A stretch of 64,000 nucleotides of DNA from an uncultured Gemmiger sp. Its GTDB lineage: Bacteria > Bacillota > Clostridia > Oscillospirales > Ruminococcaceae. The position numbers and the translations under genes were made by a program. Below are positions 55,760-60,935 of the stretch, piece by piece; the first letter of the stretch is position 1; the number at the start of each line of letters is the position of its first letter. The notes under the pieces are model-generated. The model did not search any database. It had not been told where the DNA came from and saw only the letters and a program-made list of their open reading frames with translations. The stretch covers positions 1 through 64,000 of the forward strand of contig CALWNP010000001.1 of NCBI GenBank assembly GCA_944382835.1, written 5' to 3'.

Positions 55760-57262
55760 TCAGTTGTTGGGGTTGTTTTTCAGGATGACATCGTGGCTGC
55801 CGCCCTCCACAATGGAGGTGGAGGAGACCACCGTCAGACGGGCCTTCTGCTGCAGCTCGGGGATGGACCGGGCACCGCAGTTGCACATGGTGGAGCGCAC
55901 CTTGTACAGGGTGGTCTGGACGCCGTCGGCCAGCGGACCGGCGTAGGGCACGTAGCTGTCCACGCCTTCCTCGAAGCTCAGCTTCTGGGCGCCGCCCAGG
56001 TCATAGCGCTGCCAGTTGCGGGCGCGGTTGGAACCTTCGCCCCAGTACTCCTTGACGTAGTTGCCGCCGATGCGCAGCTTGTTGGTGGGGCTTTCGTCAA
56101 AGCGGGCGAAGTAACGGCCCAGCATGACGAAGTCGGCGCCCATGGCCAGGGCCAGGGTGATGTGATAGTCGTGGACGATGCCGCCGTCGGAGCAGATGGG
56201 CACATAGATGCCGGTCTGGCGGTAGTACTCGTCCCGGGCCTGGGCCACCTCGATGACGGCAGTGGCCTGGCCGCGGCCAATGCCCTTGGTCTCGCGGGTG
56301 ATGCAGATGGAACCGCCGCCAATGCCGATCTTGACAAAGTCGGCGCCGGCCTTGGCCAGGAAGAGGAAGCCGTCGCGGTCCACCACGTTACCGGCGCCCA
56401 CCTTGACCTTGTCGCCGTAATGTTCCCGAATCCAGTCCAGGGTGCGGGACTGCCACTCGCTGAAGCCCTCGGAGGAGTCGATGCAGAGCACGTCCACACC
56501 GGCCTCCACCAGAGCAGGCACCCGCTCGGCATAGTCCCGGGTGTTGATGCCGGCGCCCACCACATAGCTCTTGTTGGCGTCCAGCAGCTCGTTGACGTTT
56601 TCCTTGTGGCTGTCGTAGTCCTTGCGGAAGACCATATACTGCAGGCGGCCTTCCTCGTCAACCAGGGGCAGGGAGTTGATCTTGTTGTCCCAGATGATGT
56701 CGTTGCAGTCATGCAGACTGGTGGTGGCCGGCGCGGTGATCAGCTTGTCCAGCGGAGTCATGAACTCGGTGACCTTGAGGTCGGTGGACATCCGGGAGAG
56801 GCGGTAATCACGGGAGGCCACAATGCCCAGCAGCTTGCCGTGGGCGGTGCCGTCGTCGGTGACGGCAACGGTGGAATGGCCGGTGCGGGCCTTCAGGTCC
56901 AGTACATCGGCCAGGGTTGCCTCGGGGGGCAGGTTGGAATCGCTGGTGACAAAGCCCTTCTTGTAGGCTTTGACACGGCGGACCATATCGGCCTCATCCT
57001 GGATGCTCTGGGAGCCGTAAATGAAAGACACGCCGCCCTGCTTGGCGAGGGCAATGGCCAGTTTTTCACCCGAAACAGACTGCATGATGGCACTGACCAT
57101 CGGGATGTTCATTTCGAGGGGGCACTCTTCCTCCCCTTTGCGGAACTTGACCAGCGGGGTCTTGAGGCTGACCGAGTTGGGCACGCATTCCGAAGAGGAA
57201 TAGCCCGGGACCAGCAGATACTCACCAAAGGTACGGGACGGTTCCGAAAAATAATACGCCAT
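55760..57262 (-). CDS. guaB: Inosine-5'-monophosphate dehydrogenase
   Basis: Oxidises IMP to XMP in GTP synthesis, 500 residues. The catalytic Cys is Cys320 in [21 protein letters not shown] (given as two parts: GGGSIC and ITRETKG). NAD/IMP-site landmarks are [20 protein letters not shown] and [11 protein letters not shown]. Two CBS domains occupy about 105-215. The flap and C-terminal segments differ from the common bacterial type, placing it in a less common branch. ATG 57262 has AAAGGAG at 8 bases. Confidence 0.94.
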
Positions 57263-57343
57263 ACGATATTCTCCTTTACCCATTTTGTGTTGCAGGATAC
57301 CCGCGCGGCGGCAAGACCTTGCTACACCTTACTCTTAGATTTT

Positions 57344-57466: not shown

Positions 57467-58540
57467 TCAACTCTGGAAGGTGATTTCGCCCTTTCCGGTG
57501 CCGATCTCCACCTGGATTTTGCGGGGCTGGTCTCCATTCTTTTGGTAACTTCCGACCGGGACCGGCTGCCCGTCGATCTGCAGTGCCCCGGTATTGCAGG
57601 TCGAGTCCACCGCATACTGGCTGGCGCCCCCTTCCAGCTCTGCCTGCAAAGTTCCCACCTCACAGCTCAGCTCCACACCCTCGGCGCCGGCAATCCGGTC
57701 GATGTCCACCTGCCCCAGCAGATTGTCCACCGTCACTTCGCTGGCGGTGAGAACGCCGGCTTTCAGGGTGCCGGTCTGCACCTCCACCGAGATGTCCTCC
57801 GCCTGCAGGTCCCCCAGTGTCACCCTGCCCACAGCCATCTGGATGTCCAGTGTTTCCAGGCCGGCATCGGCGGGCAGGGTCACCTCGATGCGGGGATTCT
57901 TTCCCTCCTCATGGTTGCTCCCGGTATAGCGGATGGCATAGCCGTCGGTCTTCTGTTCCACCGTAAAACGCCCGGGCTGCAGGTCCTCGGTACGGACCTC
58001 CATCTGGGTCAGACTGGGGTCCTGTTCCACGATCAGAGTCCCCTCCTGGACCTCCATCGACAGGGTGTTTTTCTGCCCCTGCATGGGATACAGCCCGTTC
58101 CCTTCCTCCGACGCCGCAGGTTCTGACGACGCGGTGGGAAGCGGCCCCTCGGCGGTGCCCGAAGGCTCTGCAGGCAGGCTGCCGGCCGCCGGCGGGGTGA
58201 TGGATTTCCCGGAAGATTGTCCGGTGACCAGGCCGGCCCCCAGTGCCACCACAAGCAGCAGAAGGGCCAGCACCACCACCCCGAAAATCACCCCAAAAAA
58301 GAGGCGGCGGTCCGGGTTGCCAGCGGCGGGCAGGGCGACGGCGGCGTTGAGACCGGCCCCCTCCAGAATCTTCTGGGCCACCTGTTCGGGGCTTCCCAGC
58401 TCCTCCATCGTCTGTTGTTCCTTGTCCAGGCCGGCTGCGTCAAAATAATCTTCATAATAGTTCATCGCATCCTGGCGCTCCTGCTCCGGCAGTGCTGCCA
58501 GCAGCGCTTCCAGGCGATTCAGATACTCCCGTCTTCTCAT
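57467..58540 (-). CDS. DUF1700/DUF4097 membrane protein of a PadR module
   Basis: A 357-residue protein in three parts. The N-terminal helical HAAS/DUF1700-like domain (about 1-60, YLNRLEALLAALPEQERQDAMNYY) is followed by one membrane helix (about 81-106). A Ser/Pro-rich linker then leads to a C-terminal DUF4097-type beta-helix (about 135-357) with repeated strands. Such proteins are paired with PadR regulators. The start overlaps the padR stop (ATGA). Its role may be envelope-stress sensing, but that is inferred. Confidence 0.82.
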   Translation of the reverse strand: MRRREYLNRLEALLAALPEQERQDAMNYYEDYFDAAGLDKEQQTMEELGSPEQVAQKILEGAGLNAAVALPAAGNPDRRLFFGVIFGVVVLALLLLVVALGAGLVTGQSSGKSITPPAAGSLPAEPSGTAEGPLPTASSEPAASEEGNGLYPMQGQKNTLSMEVQEGTLIVEQDPSLTQMEVRTEDLQPGRFTVEQKTDGYAIRYTGSNHEEGKNPRIEVTLPADAGLETLDIQMAVGRVTLGDLQAEDISVEVQTGTLKAGVLTASEVTVDNLLGQVDIDRIAGAEGVELSCEVGTLQAELEGGASQYAVDSTCNTGALQIDGQPVPVGSYQKNGDQPRKIQVEIGTGKGEITFQS

Positions 58541-58857
58541 GGTTGTTCCCCTCCCAACAAACTGTTCACCGCCCGGGTGTAGGCCTGCCAGGTACGGCGG
58601 CATTCCTCCAACTGGGTTCTTCCTTTTTCGGTCACCTGATAGTAGCGGCGGTTGCGGCCGTTGCAGGGCTGGTCATACACCGACAGGCAACCGTCCTTCT
58701 GCAGCCGCCGCAGCACCGGATAGAGGGTGGATTCCGAGACATCCAGGACCTGCTTGATCTCCTGGGTGATCCGATACCCGTAGGTTCCCTGCGCCTCCCG
58801 GCTGACGACGGCCAGGACAATGCCGTCCAGCAGCGCCGCACTGGTTGTAAATCCCAT
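58537..58857 (-). CDS. PadR-family transcriptional regulator
   Basis: A 106-residue winged-helix repressor of the PadR-s1 type: LLDGIVLAVVSREAQGTYGYRITQEI, SESTLYPVLRRLQKDGCLS and GRNRRYYQVTEKGRTQLEE are the family signature. ATG 58857 has GGGAGG upstream. It is coupled to the DUF1700 gene and probably represses its own promoter at a palindrome over the -10 (58893-58913). Confidence 0.93.
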   Translation of the reverse strand: MGFTTSAALLDGIVLAVVSREAQGTYGYRITQEIKQVLDVSESTLYPVLRRLQKDGCLSVYDQPCNGRNRRYYQVTEKGRTQLEECRRTWQAYTRAVNSLLGGEQP

Positions 58858-58892
58858 AGGTCCTCCCTTCCGCATATGTTGTATGGTCTTAT

Positions 58893-58913
58893 ATATTATA
58901 TATCATATAATAT
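58893..58913. promoter_or_regulatory. AT-rich palindrome over the padR promoter (PadR operator candidate)
   Basis: ATATTATAT and ATATAATAT form a perfect 9-3-9 inverted repeat covering the padR -10. Confidence 0.6.
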
Positions 58914-58925
58914 TATTGATTGCAA
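58897..58925 (-). promoter_or_regulatory. Promoter of the padR operon
   Basis: Minus strand -35 TTGCAA (58925-58920), 17-base spacer, -10 TATATA (58902-58897); a TATAAT lies 2 bases further on. Confidence 0.6.
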
Positions 58926-58944: not shown

Positions 58945-59067
58945 CCGGAAAAACAGCGAAAACCCCGCCTGAGGGAAAGGCGGGGTTTTCTGAAAGGAGG
59001 AGAAGAACACATGAAAAAGTGGGAAATGTTTTGTTTAAGGGTTTTACTTGGGGTTTGTTTAGCTTGC
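58945..59067 (-). ncRNA. Candidate small RNA (about 120 nt) antisense to a 20-residue ORF
   Basis: Driven by the promoter at 59074-59102. The transcript would start near 59067 and cross the plus-strand peptide ORF and its ribosome site, exposing a C/U-rich CTTCTCCTCCTTTC tract. It would end in a strong hairpin GAAAACCCCGCC/GGCGGGGTTTTC (58990-58958) with a further T run. No protein frame of note is on this strand. It may base-pair with the peptide mRNA or with other ribosome sites. Predicted only; no expression evidence. Confidence 0.5.
58958..58990. terminator. Perfect 12-bp hairpin at the end of the candidate small RNA
   Basis: GAAAACCCCGCC (58958-58969) pairs with GGCGGGGTTTTC (58979-58990) around a 9-base loop. 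On the minus strand GGGGTTTTC is followed by GCTGTTTTT. Confidence 0.75.
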
Positions 59068-59073
59068 AATTAA
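59011..59073 (+). CDS. Possible 20-residue hydrophobic peptide
   Basis: ATG at 59011 with AAAGGAGG 10 bases upstream, ending at TAA 59071-59073. The peptide starts MKKWEMF and continues with a hydrophobic, Cys-containing stretch (CLRVLLGVCLAC). It is far more AT-rich than its neighbours. A strong promoter on the other strand begins one base past its stop. No clear plus-strand promoter is seen; a TATAAT at 58906-58911 is the best guess. It could be a type I toxin-like peptide, a decayed lipoprotein start, or not translated at all. Confidence 0.35.
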   Translation: MKKWEMFCLRVLLGVCLACN

Positions 59074-59102
59074 ATTGTAACCATTTTGAAACCAATTGTC
59101 AA
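59074..59102 (-). promoter_or_regulatory. Strong promoter of the candidate small RNA
   Basis: Minus strand perfect -35 TTGACA (59102-59097), 17-base spacer, -10 TACAAT (59079-59074). There is no protein gene directly downstream on this strand before the hairpin at 58958-58990. Confidence 0.75.
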
Positions 59103-59145
59103 GGGTGATTTGTTAATAAGTTGTAACTTTTACAGGACAAATCTC

Positions 59146-59889
59146 TCATTGCCGGGGACAAAAGGTCAGACTGGTTTCAAAACAGATCTTCTCCTCCCGC
59201 ATCCCACAGAAATACCACTGGTTGGGGGCAGTCTGGACACGGTAGAGTGCAAAACTCTCCCCCCGCGGGACCTCCTTGTGATAATAGATCACCAGATCCT
59301 CCAGCCGCCATTGGTCCCACCAGTCCCAGGGCAGGGCATCGCAGACCACATCGATGTACCGGGTGTTGTTCATATGGCCGTTCATGTCGCACAGGCTGTA
59401 CACCGCGGTCCGGGTGCCCAAAGGCTCGCAGCTCTCAAACTTGGCCTTGGTCATCTTCATGGAAAGGGAGCGCTCCACGTCGTGGTCCCACAGGGCAATC
59501 TCGGGGGGATGCTTGCGCAGAATCATCCGCTTGTCCACGTCGATGAGGACCCAGCGGCTGTCCACCACCGCCTCCTCCTGGCCCTGGGCGTCACAGAGGG
59601 TGGTGATCCGCTTGTTCACCGCATGTTTCAGCCGTTCCGGCTCGGTGATCAGGGTCACCGTCTCGTCCACGTGGGGCATCCGGGTGATGTGCATGGCAAT
59701 CTTGGCCAGCACATAGGCGGTGTGGGTGCGGGCGTAGACCTCATCGGTGACCCCCATATGGTAGGCATGGGCGGTGGACACCTGCTGCACATACCGCAGG
59801 ATGGAGGCCGGCTTGATGTCGCCGTAAAAATCGCCGTCGTGGCGGTTGACCAGCCACTGTTCGGAATACTGGTTTGTTGTCAGTTCCAT
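59146..59889 (-). CDS. Acyl-ACP thioesterase
   Basis: Hot-dog fold thioesterase of the plant FatA/FatB-like bacterial family, 247 residues, which releases fatty acids from acyl-ACP. The N-terminal half has YGDIKPASILRYVQQVSTAHA, and the second half DMNGHMNNTRYIDVVCDALP carries the family Asn-His (NGHMNNTRY) motif. ATG 59889 lies after GAAGGGAA. No promoter of its own is evident, and a terminator (59939-59962) lies upstream, so it may depend on readthrough. Confidence 0.88.
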   Translation of the reverse strand: MELTTNQYSEQWLVNRHDGDFYGDIKPASILRYVQQVSTAHAYHMGVTDEVYARTHTAYVLAKIAMHITRMPHVDETVTLITEPERLKHAVNKRITTLCDAQGQEEAVVDSRWVLIDVDKRMILRKHPPEIALWDHDVERSLSMKMTKAKFESCEPLGTRTAVYSLCDMNGHMNNTRYIDVVCDALPWDWWDQWRLEDLVIYYHKEVPRGESFALYRVQTAPNQWYFCGMREEKICFETSLTFCPRQ

Positions 59890-59969: not shown

Positions 59970-60935
59970 TCAGGTGGTTTCGGCGGCCTTTTCGGCCCGT
60001 TTGCGGATGCGTTCCCGCTGGGCAGCTTCCTGGCGTTTCCACCGGGCCAGGGTTTCGGGGCGGACCGTCTCCAGGCAGCGGGCAAAGTTCCAGTGCAGCC
60101 CGTCCCGGCGGGAGAGCTTGAACCGCAGGAACCAGTCCCCATGGGCGGGGCAGTGGGCCAGGGTGTAATACCCGGTGTTGCCCCGCTTGAGCCAGATGTC
60201 CCCCACCGTCAGCGGCGCGCCGCAGACCGGGCAGTGCACCGTGAACAGGGTGGGGTCGGTTTTGTAATCGTCGTGCTCCATCCGGCCCAGGAAGGTCTGG
60301 ACATCATGGTATTCCGCCTCGGGGTCGGTGAGCAGCGCCTCGATGAGCTGGCTTTCCTCGTCGGGATAGGCGGCCAGCCCCTTGGCCAGGGGCAGCTCCC
60401 GGCAGATCTTGACGGTGTAGAGGGCATCGTCCAAGGCGTTGTGGAAGGGCTCCTCCTTGGGGATGCCCAGACGGTCCACCACGCTCTCCAGCGTCATGCC
60501 CTCCCCTTCCTTGCGGGGATAATACTGCAAAAAGATCCGCTGCAGGTCGTACCAGCGGTTGGGCCAGCTCTCGTCCAGGCCGTAGAGGAAGAGGTTCTGT
60601 TTCAGCACCGGCACATCGTCCAGTCCCCACTCGGCAAACTCGGCGTCGGGACCGGCCCACTCCACAAAGCGGGTCAGACCTTCCTTCATGGGCACCCCAG
60701 CCTCCAGGTCCCCCTGGGAAAGTCCGGTCACCTGGGCAATGCGGTGCTGCAGCTTGCGGAAGATACGGGGCCGGAGGTTGATTTCAAAGGTATCCAGCAC
60801 CTCGCCGCGGTCGTCAATCTTGACGGCGCCGATCTGGATGATCTCCCCCCGCAGGGTCAGCTCCACACCATGGTACTGAAAGGTCTTGGGCTGGTACCCG
60901 ATGTTCCACTCCAGGTCAAAAACGATCAAACTCAC
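59970..60935 (-). CDS. DEDDh 3'-5' exonuclease (RNase T/DnaQ-like) with zinc-ribbon-like tail
   Basis: A 321-residue protein. The exonuclease domain has the first acidic pair in VFDLEWN (Asp7, Glu9), a middle EFAEWGLDD region and HNALDDALYT with the catalytic His and Asp. After residue 230 comes CPVCGAPLTV ... HCPAHG, a possible zinc ribbon, then a basic C-terminus (RKRAEKAAETT). Substrate RNA or DNA is unknown; it is of the KapD-like type. It starts with GTG that overlaps the HAD stop (GTGA). Confidence 0.85.
   Translation of the reverse strand: MSLIVFDLEWNIGYQPKTFQYHGVELTLRGEIIQIGAVKIDDRGEVLDTFEINLRPRIFRKLQHRIAQVTGLSQGDLEAGVPMKEGLTRFVEWAGPDAEFAEWGLDDVPVLKQNLFLYGLDESWPNRWYDLQRIFLQYYPRKEGEGMTLESVVDRLGIPKEEPFHNALDDALYTVKICRELPLAKGLAAYPDEESQLIEALLTDPEAEYHDVQTFLGRMEHDDYKTDPTLFTVHCPVCGAPLTVGDIWLKRGNTGYYTLAHCPAHGDWFLRFKLSRRDGLHWNFARCLETVRPETLARWKRQEAAQRERIRKRAEKAAETT

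Follow-up and report, generated by a model that had tools for sequence, protein, structure and literature searches.

A predicted Gemmiger small RNA with a core complementary to translation start sites, likely an arm-less variant of an orphan RNA family

The locus studied here raises the question of what is encoded where a tiny hydrophobic open reading frame (ORF) and a strongly promoted RNA on the opposite strand overlap: a toxin with its antitoxin, or a small RNA (sRNA) that acts on other genes. The window, by which we mean the whole 64,000-nucleotide stretch that was analysed (contig CALWNP010000001.1 of an uncultured Gemmiger sp.), has on its plus strand AAAGGAGG followed by an ATG at 59011 and a 20-codon ORF running to 59073, just as described in a first-pass annotation. 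That annotation had favoured an Ibs/Sib-like type I toxin-antitoxin unit and had held in reserve an sRNA with a C/U-rich tract complementary to ribosome-binding sites. Comparison with related genomes speaks against the first idea and supports the second well. The minus-strand element is very probably a real and conserved sRNA gene; it likely represents a new, arm-less form within an orphan RNA family, its likely job being to block translation initiation. The reading as a whole, that of an Hfq-free, trans-acting sRNA that blocks translation starts and is the arm-less Gemmiger ortholog of the IMPDH RNA family, we regard as fairly probable. The features on which the argument turns are the following.

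58948..59067, minus strand: predicted sRNA gene, starting near 59067 and ending in the T tail past the terminator
59111..59127, minus strand: upstream tandem pair GTTACA-N5-TTAACA, from a pattern match
59074..59102, minus strand: sigma-70-type promoter TTGACA-17-TACAAT, from a consensus scan and its presence in same-genus loci
59019..59066, minus strand: 5' segment of the sRNA, varying in length and sequence across the genus except for its GCAAG start
58992..59018, minus strand: sRNA core UUUUUCAUGUGUUCUUCUCCUCCUUUC, made up of an anti-AUG (CAU), an 8-nt spacer and an anti-SD (CUCCUCC)
58958..58990, minus strand: terminator hairpin with an invariant UCCCUC loop, from a terminator scan and the alignment of loci
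59011..59073, plus strand: 20-codon ORF, the proposed toxin; 3–32 codons long over 30 loci and judged probably no gene
59146..59889, minus strand: acyl-ACP thioesterase (Pfam PF01643/PF20791), the upstream neighbour and most constant synteny partner
58537..58857, minus strand: PadR-family regulator (Pfam PF03551), downstream of the sRNA in part of Gemmiger
57467..58540, minus strand: HAAS/DUF4097 protein (Pfam PF22564/PF13349), the partner of PadR
55760..57283, minus strand: guaB, IMP dehydrogenase (Pfam PF00478, E 1e-109)

The minus-strand unit sits between the acyl-ACP thioesterase gene and padR. Its promoter, called near-perfect in the first-pass annotation, has a −35 box TTGACA at 59102-59097, a 17-bp spacer and a −10 box TACAAT at 59079-59074, together matching the consensus at 11 of 12 positions, and it is the best of the four promoter-like sites found between 58400 and 59700, where shuffled sequences give a mean of 0.7. 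The same annotation had the promoter starting just past the ORF stop; the −10 box is indeed there, but the start site is predicted near 59067. Transcription from it is predicted to yield an RNA of ∼110–120 nt (about 115) that crosses the ORF and its ribosome site, in agreement with the earlier figure of some 120 nt. The RNA would end in the hairpin at 58990-58958, which is present as claimed, although it has 13 pairs, 8 of them GC, rather than being a 12-bp GC hairpin, and a T-rich tail lies behind it. Terminator-like sites numbered two against a mean of 1.1 in shuffles, and the fold of the sRNA has a z of −4.1 relative to shuffles, nearly all of which is owed to the terminator. The element is single copy in its own genome, and the window gave no Rfam match at gathering score. 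It is conservation across loci that sets the unit apart from chance.

A DNA search of 61 genomes traced the sRNA across the genus, and 30 same-genus loci, one per genome, were read. A model of it, R1, found the sRNA in 30 of 35 genus genomes with a single strong match each; it is present in 19 of 19 good-quality genomes (completeness of 90% or more, contamination of 5% or less), and the five genomes with no R1 match are 68–86% complete. The 30 loci share an invariant run of 25 consecutive bases (TTTTCATGTGTTCTTCTCCTCCTTT), and mean pairwise identity is 1.0 in the core, 0.60 in the columns before the core and ∼0.32 outside the sRNA unit. The promoter follows TTGACN-17-TACAAT/TATAAT in 29 of the 30 loci; the odd one out, L020, is truncated by a contig end, and two loci with a different promoter interior (L022 and L031) have yet kept TTGACG-17-TATAAT. 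All 29 loci long enough to show a terminator-like hairpin have one. Its UCCCUC loop is invariant in 27 aligned sequences (L009, L026 and L028 being left out of the 30), its stem sequence varies among loci as judged by reading alignment A1, and its U tail is weak in some species; RNAalifold on A1 returned just 6 pairs, the hairpin being misaligned there. Thus, of the three elements that the first-pass annotation had singled out for comparison with relatives, promoter and hairpin are retained rather than lost, and only the peptide is not kept.

The exact 24-mer core occurs in 27 records among 84,980 species genomes, all of them from this genus (24 labelled Gemmiger and one each Faecalibacterium sp. 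UBA1360, Subdoligranulum sp. and Oscillospiraceae bacterium), and has no exact match in a viral genome collection. In one genome (G022), contigs C6 and C44 both end inside the sRNA with overlapping sequence (L026 and L117), and the apparent second copy is most simply explained by a single locus broken across the two. An order-wide search of 394 genomes with the short model R1 gave weak matches in 88 besides the sRNA's own; most of the 29 other loci that were read resemble ordinary gene starts in antisense and were rejected as homologs. A weak match outside those 29, in genome G388 (L126), is a true relative.

Longer forms of the RNA are found in sister genera. We looked for the thioesterase in 61 genomes of the family, 39 of which gave a match, and then read the DNA downstream. 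Eight of the first 11 sister-genus loci have the same promoter and start region (mostly TTGCAAGAAAGTTACAA), most of the eight also a CUUUUUCAUGUGUU block, and behind these a stem arm and terminator; at the remaining three (L129, L131 and L133) the sRNA is absent from that place. A further sister-genus locus, L138, carries the long form, and the promoter pattern was not found at the distant thioesterase loci L139–L154. The sister-genus promoter aligns with that of Gemmiger ungapped from the −35 box to the start site. A promoter-only model, R2, built from 22 loci, scored above 42 bits in 42 of 297 family genomes, 27 of the 42 lying outside the building set, and by our count these matches fall in 15 genera. 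The scores show a gap between 42 and 35 bits, and the matches at 35 bits or less resemble AT-rich background.

The 30 best R2 loci, five of them from Gemmiger, were read and 29 could be anchored: all 29 have the UUUUUC(A/U)U block and 28 have UCCUCC. The thioesterase accompanies the promoter in 23 of the 30 loci, and in 22 guaB follows downstream, on the same strand. Twenty-five arm-bearing loci from 11 genera were folded, and in 24 of the 25 minimum-energy folds UCCUCC stays single-stranded, with a stem enclosing it and a hairpin after it; the same arrangement arises in 682 of 5000 motif-preserving shuffles, and the 25 loci are not independent of one another. A joint alignment of the arms, with L135 left out, was poor, and sequences were instead folded singly and compared with shuffles. 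Nine of ten arms folded alone gave a z below −2, the tenth (L138) having a z of −1.0. Two loci of genus g194, L177 and L186, show an extra hairpin before a later terminator, from which we predict that their RNAs may be longer than 200 nt.

One sister-genus locus gave a weak match to RF02994, "IMPDH RNA", an entry that Rfam types as Gene; sRNA. This model scores above its cut-off in three of the 297 family genomes, all from genus g32, which we take to be possibly Faecalibacterium, and in each case between the thioesterase and guaB; a fourth g32 genome (L158) reaches 47.8 bits. The four g32 loci (L155–L158) have the same promoter as the window sRNA and the same place between thioesterase and guaB, with guaB downstream on the same strand in all four, and L158 mixes both forms: it shares UUUUUCAUGAG with the others and has an apical loop that is RF02994-like. 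Six other weak matches (L159–L164) are located elsewhere and were rejected as unrelated by reading. The RF02994 model spans the arm and some 3' sequence, while promoter, 5' block and terminator lie outside it. The window has no match to it at gathering score or at E up to 5, nor have five Gemmiger genomes (G000 included), and the stem arm with its unpaired UCCUCC is absent from both the window fold and the genus alignment.

The window sRNA resembles IMPDH RNA in its place between acyl-ACP thioesterase and guaB, in promoter type and start region, and in an unpaired UCCUCCUCC with a terminator-like hairpin behind it; it differs in that it has no arm and fails the RF02994 model. Because of this failure it is an ortholog by place, promoter and motifs and not a model-defined member, and the reading that we favour on these sequence comparisons is that it represents the Gemmiger ortholog of IMPDH RNA without the arm. 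RF02994 appears in turn to be one lineage of an RNA common to about 15 genera of the family, usually encoded between thioesterase and guaB. In a tree of 28 GuaB proteins, which we rooted on g203, Gemmiger joins g32 with a support of 0.98, and the next neighbours are the arm-bearing g179 and g41 (support 0.72 and 0.82). With arm-bearing genera as its neighbours in this tree, loss of the arm in Gemmiger is the simplest account. A literature search, with most subscription journals outside its reach, found no paper on this RNA.

What the invariant core may do is suggested by its layout. The anti-AUG and anti-SD motifs are predicted to be single-stranded and are 8 nt apart, which is within the usual SD-AUG range. 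In a 400-kb sample of the related genome G026, a simple rule picked out 100 of 312 ORFs as having a strong SD and an ATG; among the 87 spacings measured, 8 nt occurs most often (17), and 6, 7 and 9 nt are almost as frequent. Duplex energies were calculated for 111 start regions, drawn from the G026 sample and the window genes, and for 111 internal SD-like sites. With the start regions the core has a mean of −16.3 kcal/mol, compared with −14.95 kcal/mol when its anti-AUG half is shuffled, and the real core beats 494 of 500 shuffled versions, 6 being as good. At the internal SD-like sites, 181 of 500 shuffled versions are as good as the real core. The contrast between start and internal sites is matched by 21 of 500 shuffles, which we take as modest to moderate support for recognition of start sites. 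Cores with longer spacers fit the start regions even better, probably owing to their length; since the spacing variants differ in length, these energies do not speak for a tuned spacing.

We searched the sRNA's own genome for the complement of the 20-mer core, allowing up to 3 mismatches, and found no site but its own, so a single extended target within that limit was rejected. The lack of a near-complete second complement fits an sRNA with several imperfect targets. Two genes in the G026 sample, one methyltransferase-like (−29.9 kcal/mol) and one ABC-permease-like (−26.4 kcal/mol), both named by reading, are candidates that we do not claim as targets. Hfq was found in none of the 35 genus genomes by a search that was positive in 5 of 14 controls.

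We propose that a sigma-70 promoter overlaid by direct repeats would drive the sRNA and an intrinsic terminator would end it. The single-stranded core would then offer an anti-AUG and an anti-SD spaced like a translation start site, and the terminator loop a second C-rich motif, UCCCUC. Pairing with the start regions of several mRNAs would block ribosome binding and lower translation without Hfq. In this way the sRNA probably silences mRNAs whose ribosome-binding sites and start codons it can pair with, although trans action, repression and targets are all matters that we infer.

The alternative that survives best is that the sRNA titrates an RNA-binding protein by means of its polypyrimidine core, the complementarity to start sites being incidental. 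An RNA that pairs at many short sites would not usually keep 25 contiguous bases invariant, and the own genome is without an extended target, both of which titration would accommodate. However, the anti-AUG half outdoes its shuffles, which have the same composition, at start regions and does not do so at internal sites, and in the sister genera the two motifs are found in different structural settings. We therefore consider titration unlikely and retain the reading of an sRNA that pairs with translation start regions.

The closest known RNAs in function, by analogy and with no claim of sequence homology, are the CiaRH-dependent csRNAs of streptococci. These carry anti-SD and anti-AUG motifs in unpaired regions, have promoters with the response-regulator direct repeat TTTAAG-N5-TTTAAG at an 11-bp period, and are encoded by two to six genes per streptococcal genome (PMC3091779); they act at the comC start region (PMC4507080). 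The likeness consists of an unpaired anti-SD and anti-AUG and of a repeat-bearing promoter with an 11-bp period, whereas the window sRNA differs in having TTACAA/TTGCAA-type repeats in place of TTTAAG-N5-TTTAAG and in being a single sRNA gene rather than one of several. Several C-rich sRNAs of Firmicutes, among them RsaE/RoxS and LhrC, pair with SD sequences through C-rich single-stranded motifs. The window sRNA has such a motif, complementary to SD sequences, in common with them; it is set apart from them in that the window has no Rfam match at gathering, LhrC scoring 19.3 bits against a cut-off of 110.

How far the RNA is tied to its neighbours was judged from 27 named Gemmiger loci, each of up to 8 kb. 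The thioesterase is the usual upstream neighbour. Downstream, 6 loci show guaB on the same strand and 5 show it on the opposite one; the other 16 show no guaB within the stretch read, and padR follows on the same strand in 13, directly in 11 of these. In Candidatus Gemmiger faecavium (L005/L078, one contig) the sRNA is inverted relative to thioesterase and guaB with promoter and core intact, which suggests a local inversion. With neighbours that vary and an inversion, the sRNA is therefore an autonomous gene and no leader of guaB or padR; it has a promoter and terminator of its own that are kept independently of the neighbours. The ancestral downstream neighbour is probably guaB.

These loci also bear on the possibility that the RNA is a cis-acting leader, or a riboswitch or attenuator, of guaB or of the PadR operon. 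The same-strand guaB downstream in 22 of 30 promoter-model loci and in 4 of 4 g32 loci would suit such a leader, but in Gemmiger guaB was seen in this position in 6 of 27 loci of at most 8 kb and padR in 13, and the sRNA is inverted in L005/L078. The RNA moreover ends in a terminator-like hairpin, Rfam types RF02994 as an sRNA gene, and padR has a promoter-like site of its own with 9 of 12 consensus matches. Together these make a cis-acting role quite unlikely.

A very improbable reading is that we are looking at a mere terminator and 3' untranslated region of the thioesterase gene, with the promoter unused. The thioesterase gene does end only ∼43 bp upstream of the −35 box, and no terminator was seen between the two in the window. 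Against this, conservation of the promoter and start region extends across genera, in L126 the thioesterase is parted from the sRNA promoter by a T-tailed hairpin, and in three of the five loci labelled Gemmiger formicilis (L072, L075 and L080) the thioesterase is 3–4 kb away.

Two further observations concern the flanks of the autonomous sRNA gene. An AT-rich, palindrome-like element (TATATATTATATATCATATAATATTATT) at 58890-58917, just upstream of padR, recurs nearly unchanged 3' of the sRNA in, for example, L015, L016, L017, L018, L024 and L027, and is perhaps a PadR operator. An RNase T/exonuclease-domain protein is encoded at 59970-60935 on the minus strand, adjoining the thioesterase; in L015/L085 a 73% identical protein adjoins the sRNA, and the thioesterase was not found there.

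The plus-strand ORF behaves quite differently from the sRNA opposite it. Read from the same ATG, it has 3–32 codons in the 30 same-genus loci (one being cut by a contig end), six of which encode MKKWL alone, and beyond MK nothing is common to all the peptides. The window peptide is absent from the other 29 loci, and similar peptides occur only in close relatives. The nearest, in L026, shares the last residues CLACN with the window ORF because this stretch falls in the conserved start region of the sRNA, just as the ribosome-binding site and ATG are constant because they are the complement of its invariant core. A consensus scan of the plus strand from 58450 to the ORF gave no promoter-like site, which bears out the annotation's own remark that a clear plus-strand promoter is lacking, and the peptide has no match in Pfam or PHROG. 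Ibs/Sib systems consist of a small ORF with an overlapping antisense RNA; the window resembles them in these two components and differs in having no conserved toxin ORF. The toxin peptide is probably not a gene. A type I toxin-antitoxin system, in which the minus-strand RNA would silence a hydrophobic toxic peptide, can point to a ribosome-binding site, ATG and hydrophobic 20-codon ORF overlapped in full by the antisense RNA, but with no peptide conserved across the loci, no promoter-like site seen near the ORF and a stem arm between the two core halves in sister genera, we drop it as scarcely credible.

The sRNA promoter contains repeats that may point to its regulator. Units ending in CAA run through the −35 box, the −10 box and the start site and on beyond it as a direct-repeat array with intervals of 10–14 bp, mostly 11 bp; relative to the −10 anchor, they peak in 35 promoters at −42 (25 promoters), −31 (26), −17 (18), −7 (34), +4 (35) and +15 (30). 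Direct repeats with a period of ∼11 bp are the geometry of OmpR-family response regulators. The upstream tandem DTWACA-N5-DTWACA is clear in Gemmiger and g32 promoters and not in L126, L127, L128 and L130, and its GTTACA-N5-TTAACA form in the window is presumably a PhoP/WalR-type box. It is our guess that the promoter is probably bound by an OmpR-family response regulator of the PhoP/WalR/CiaR type. The tandem pattern as a route to this regulator was tried and rejected: genome-wide it has 6 sites, the same as the reversed-pattern control and thus no enrichment, and the five other sites have no obvious shared context.

A bolder proposal, which we advance tentatively and would expect to fail somewhat sooner than to hold, is that an Hfq-free sRNA mimicking start sites is under a dedicated response regulator in ∼15 gut genera, and that its Gemmiger form is a bare 25-base complement, the scaffold being dispensable and the paired anti-AUG and anti-SD being the function. 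If the sRNA works as we propose, Gemmiger and its relatives, organisms with no detectable Hfq, would have a conserved post-transcriptional regulator, the orphan IMPDH RNA of Rfam would gain a testable function, and the genus would provide a natural experiment in which a structured sRNA loses its scaffold but keeps its seed.

A separate sRNA candidate, for which we claim no homology, was seen in a locus from another family of the order (L034). It lies on the minus strand upstream of the match at 1501-1568 and has the promoter-like sequence TTGACA-17-TATACT, two UCUCCUUU/ACUCCUUU stretches and a strong terminator.
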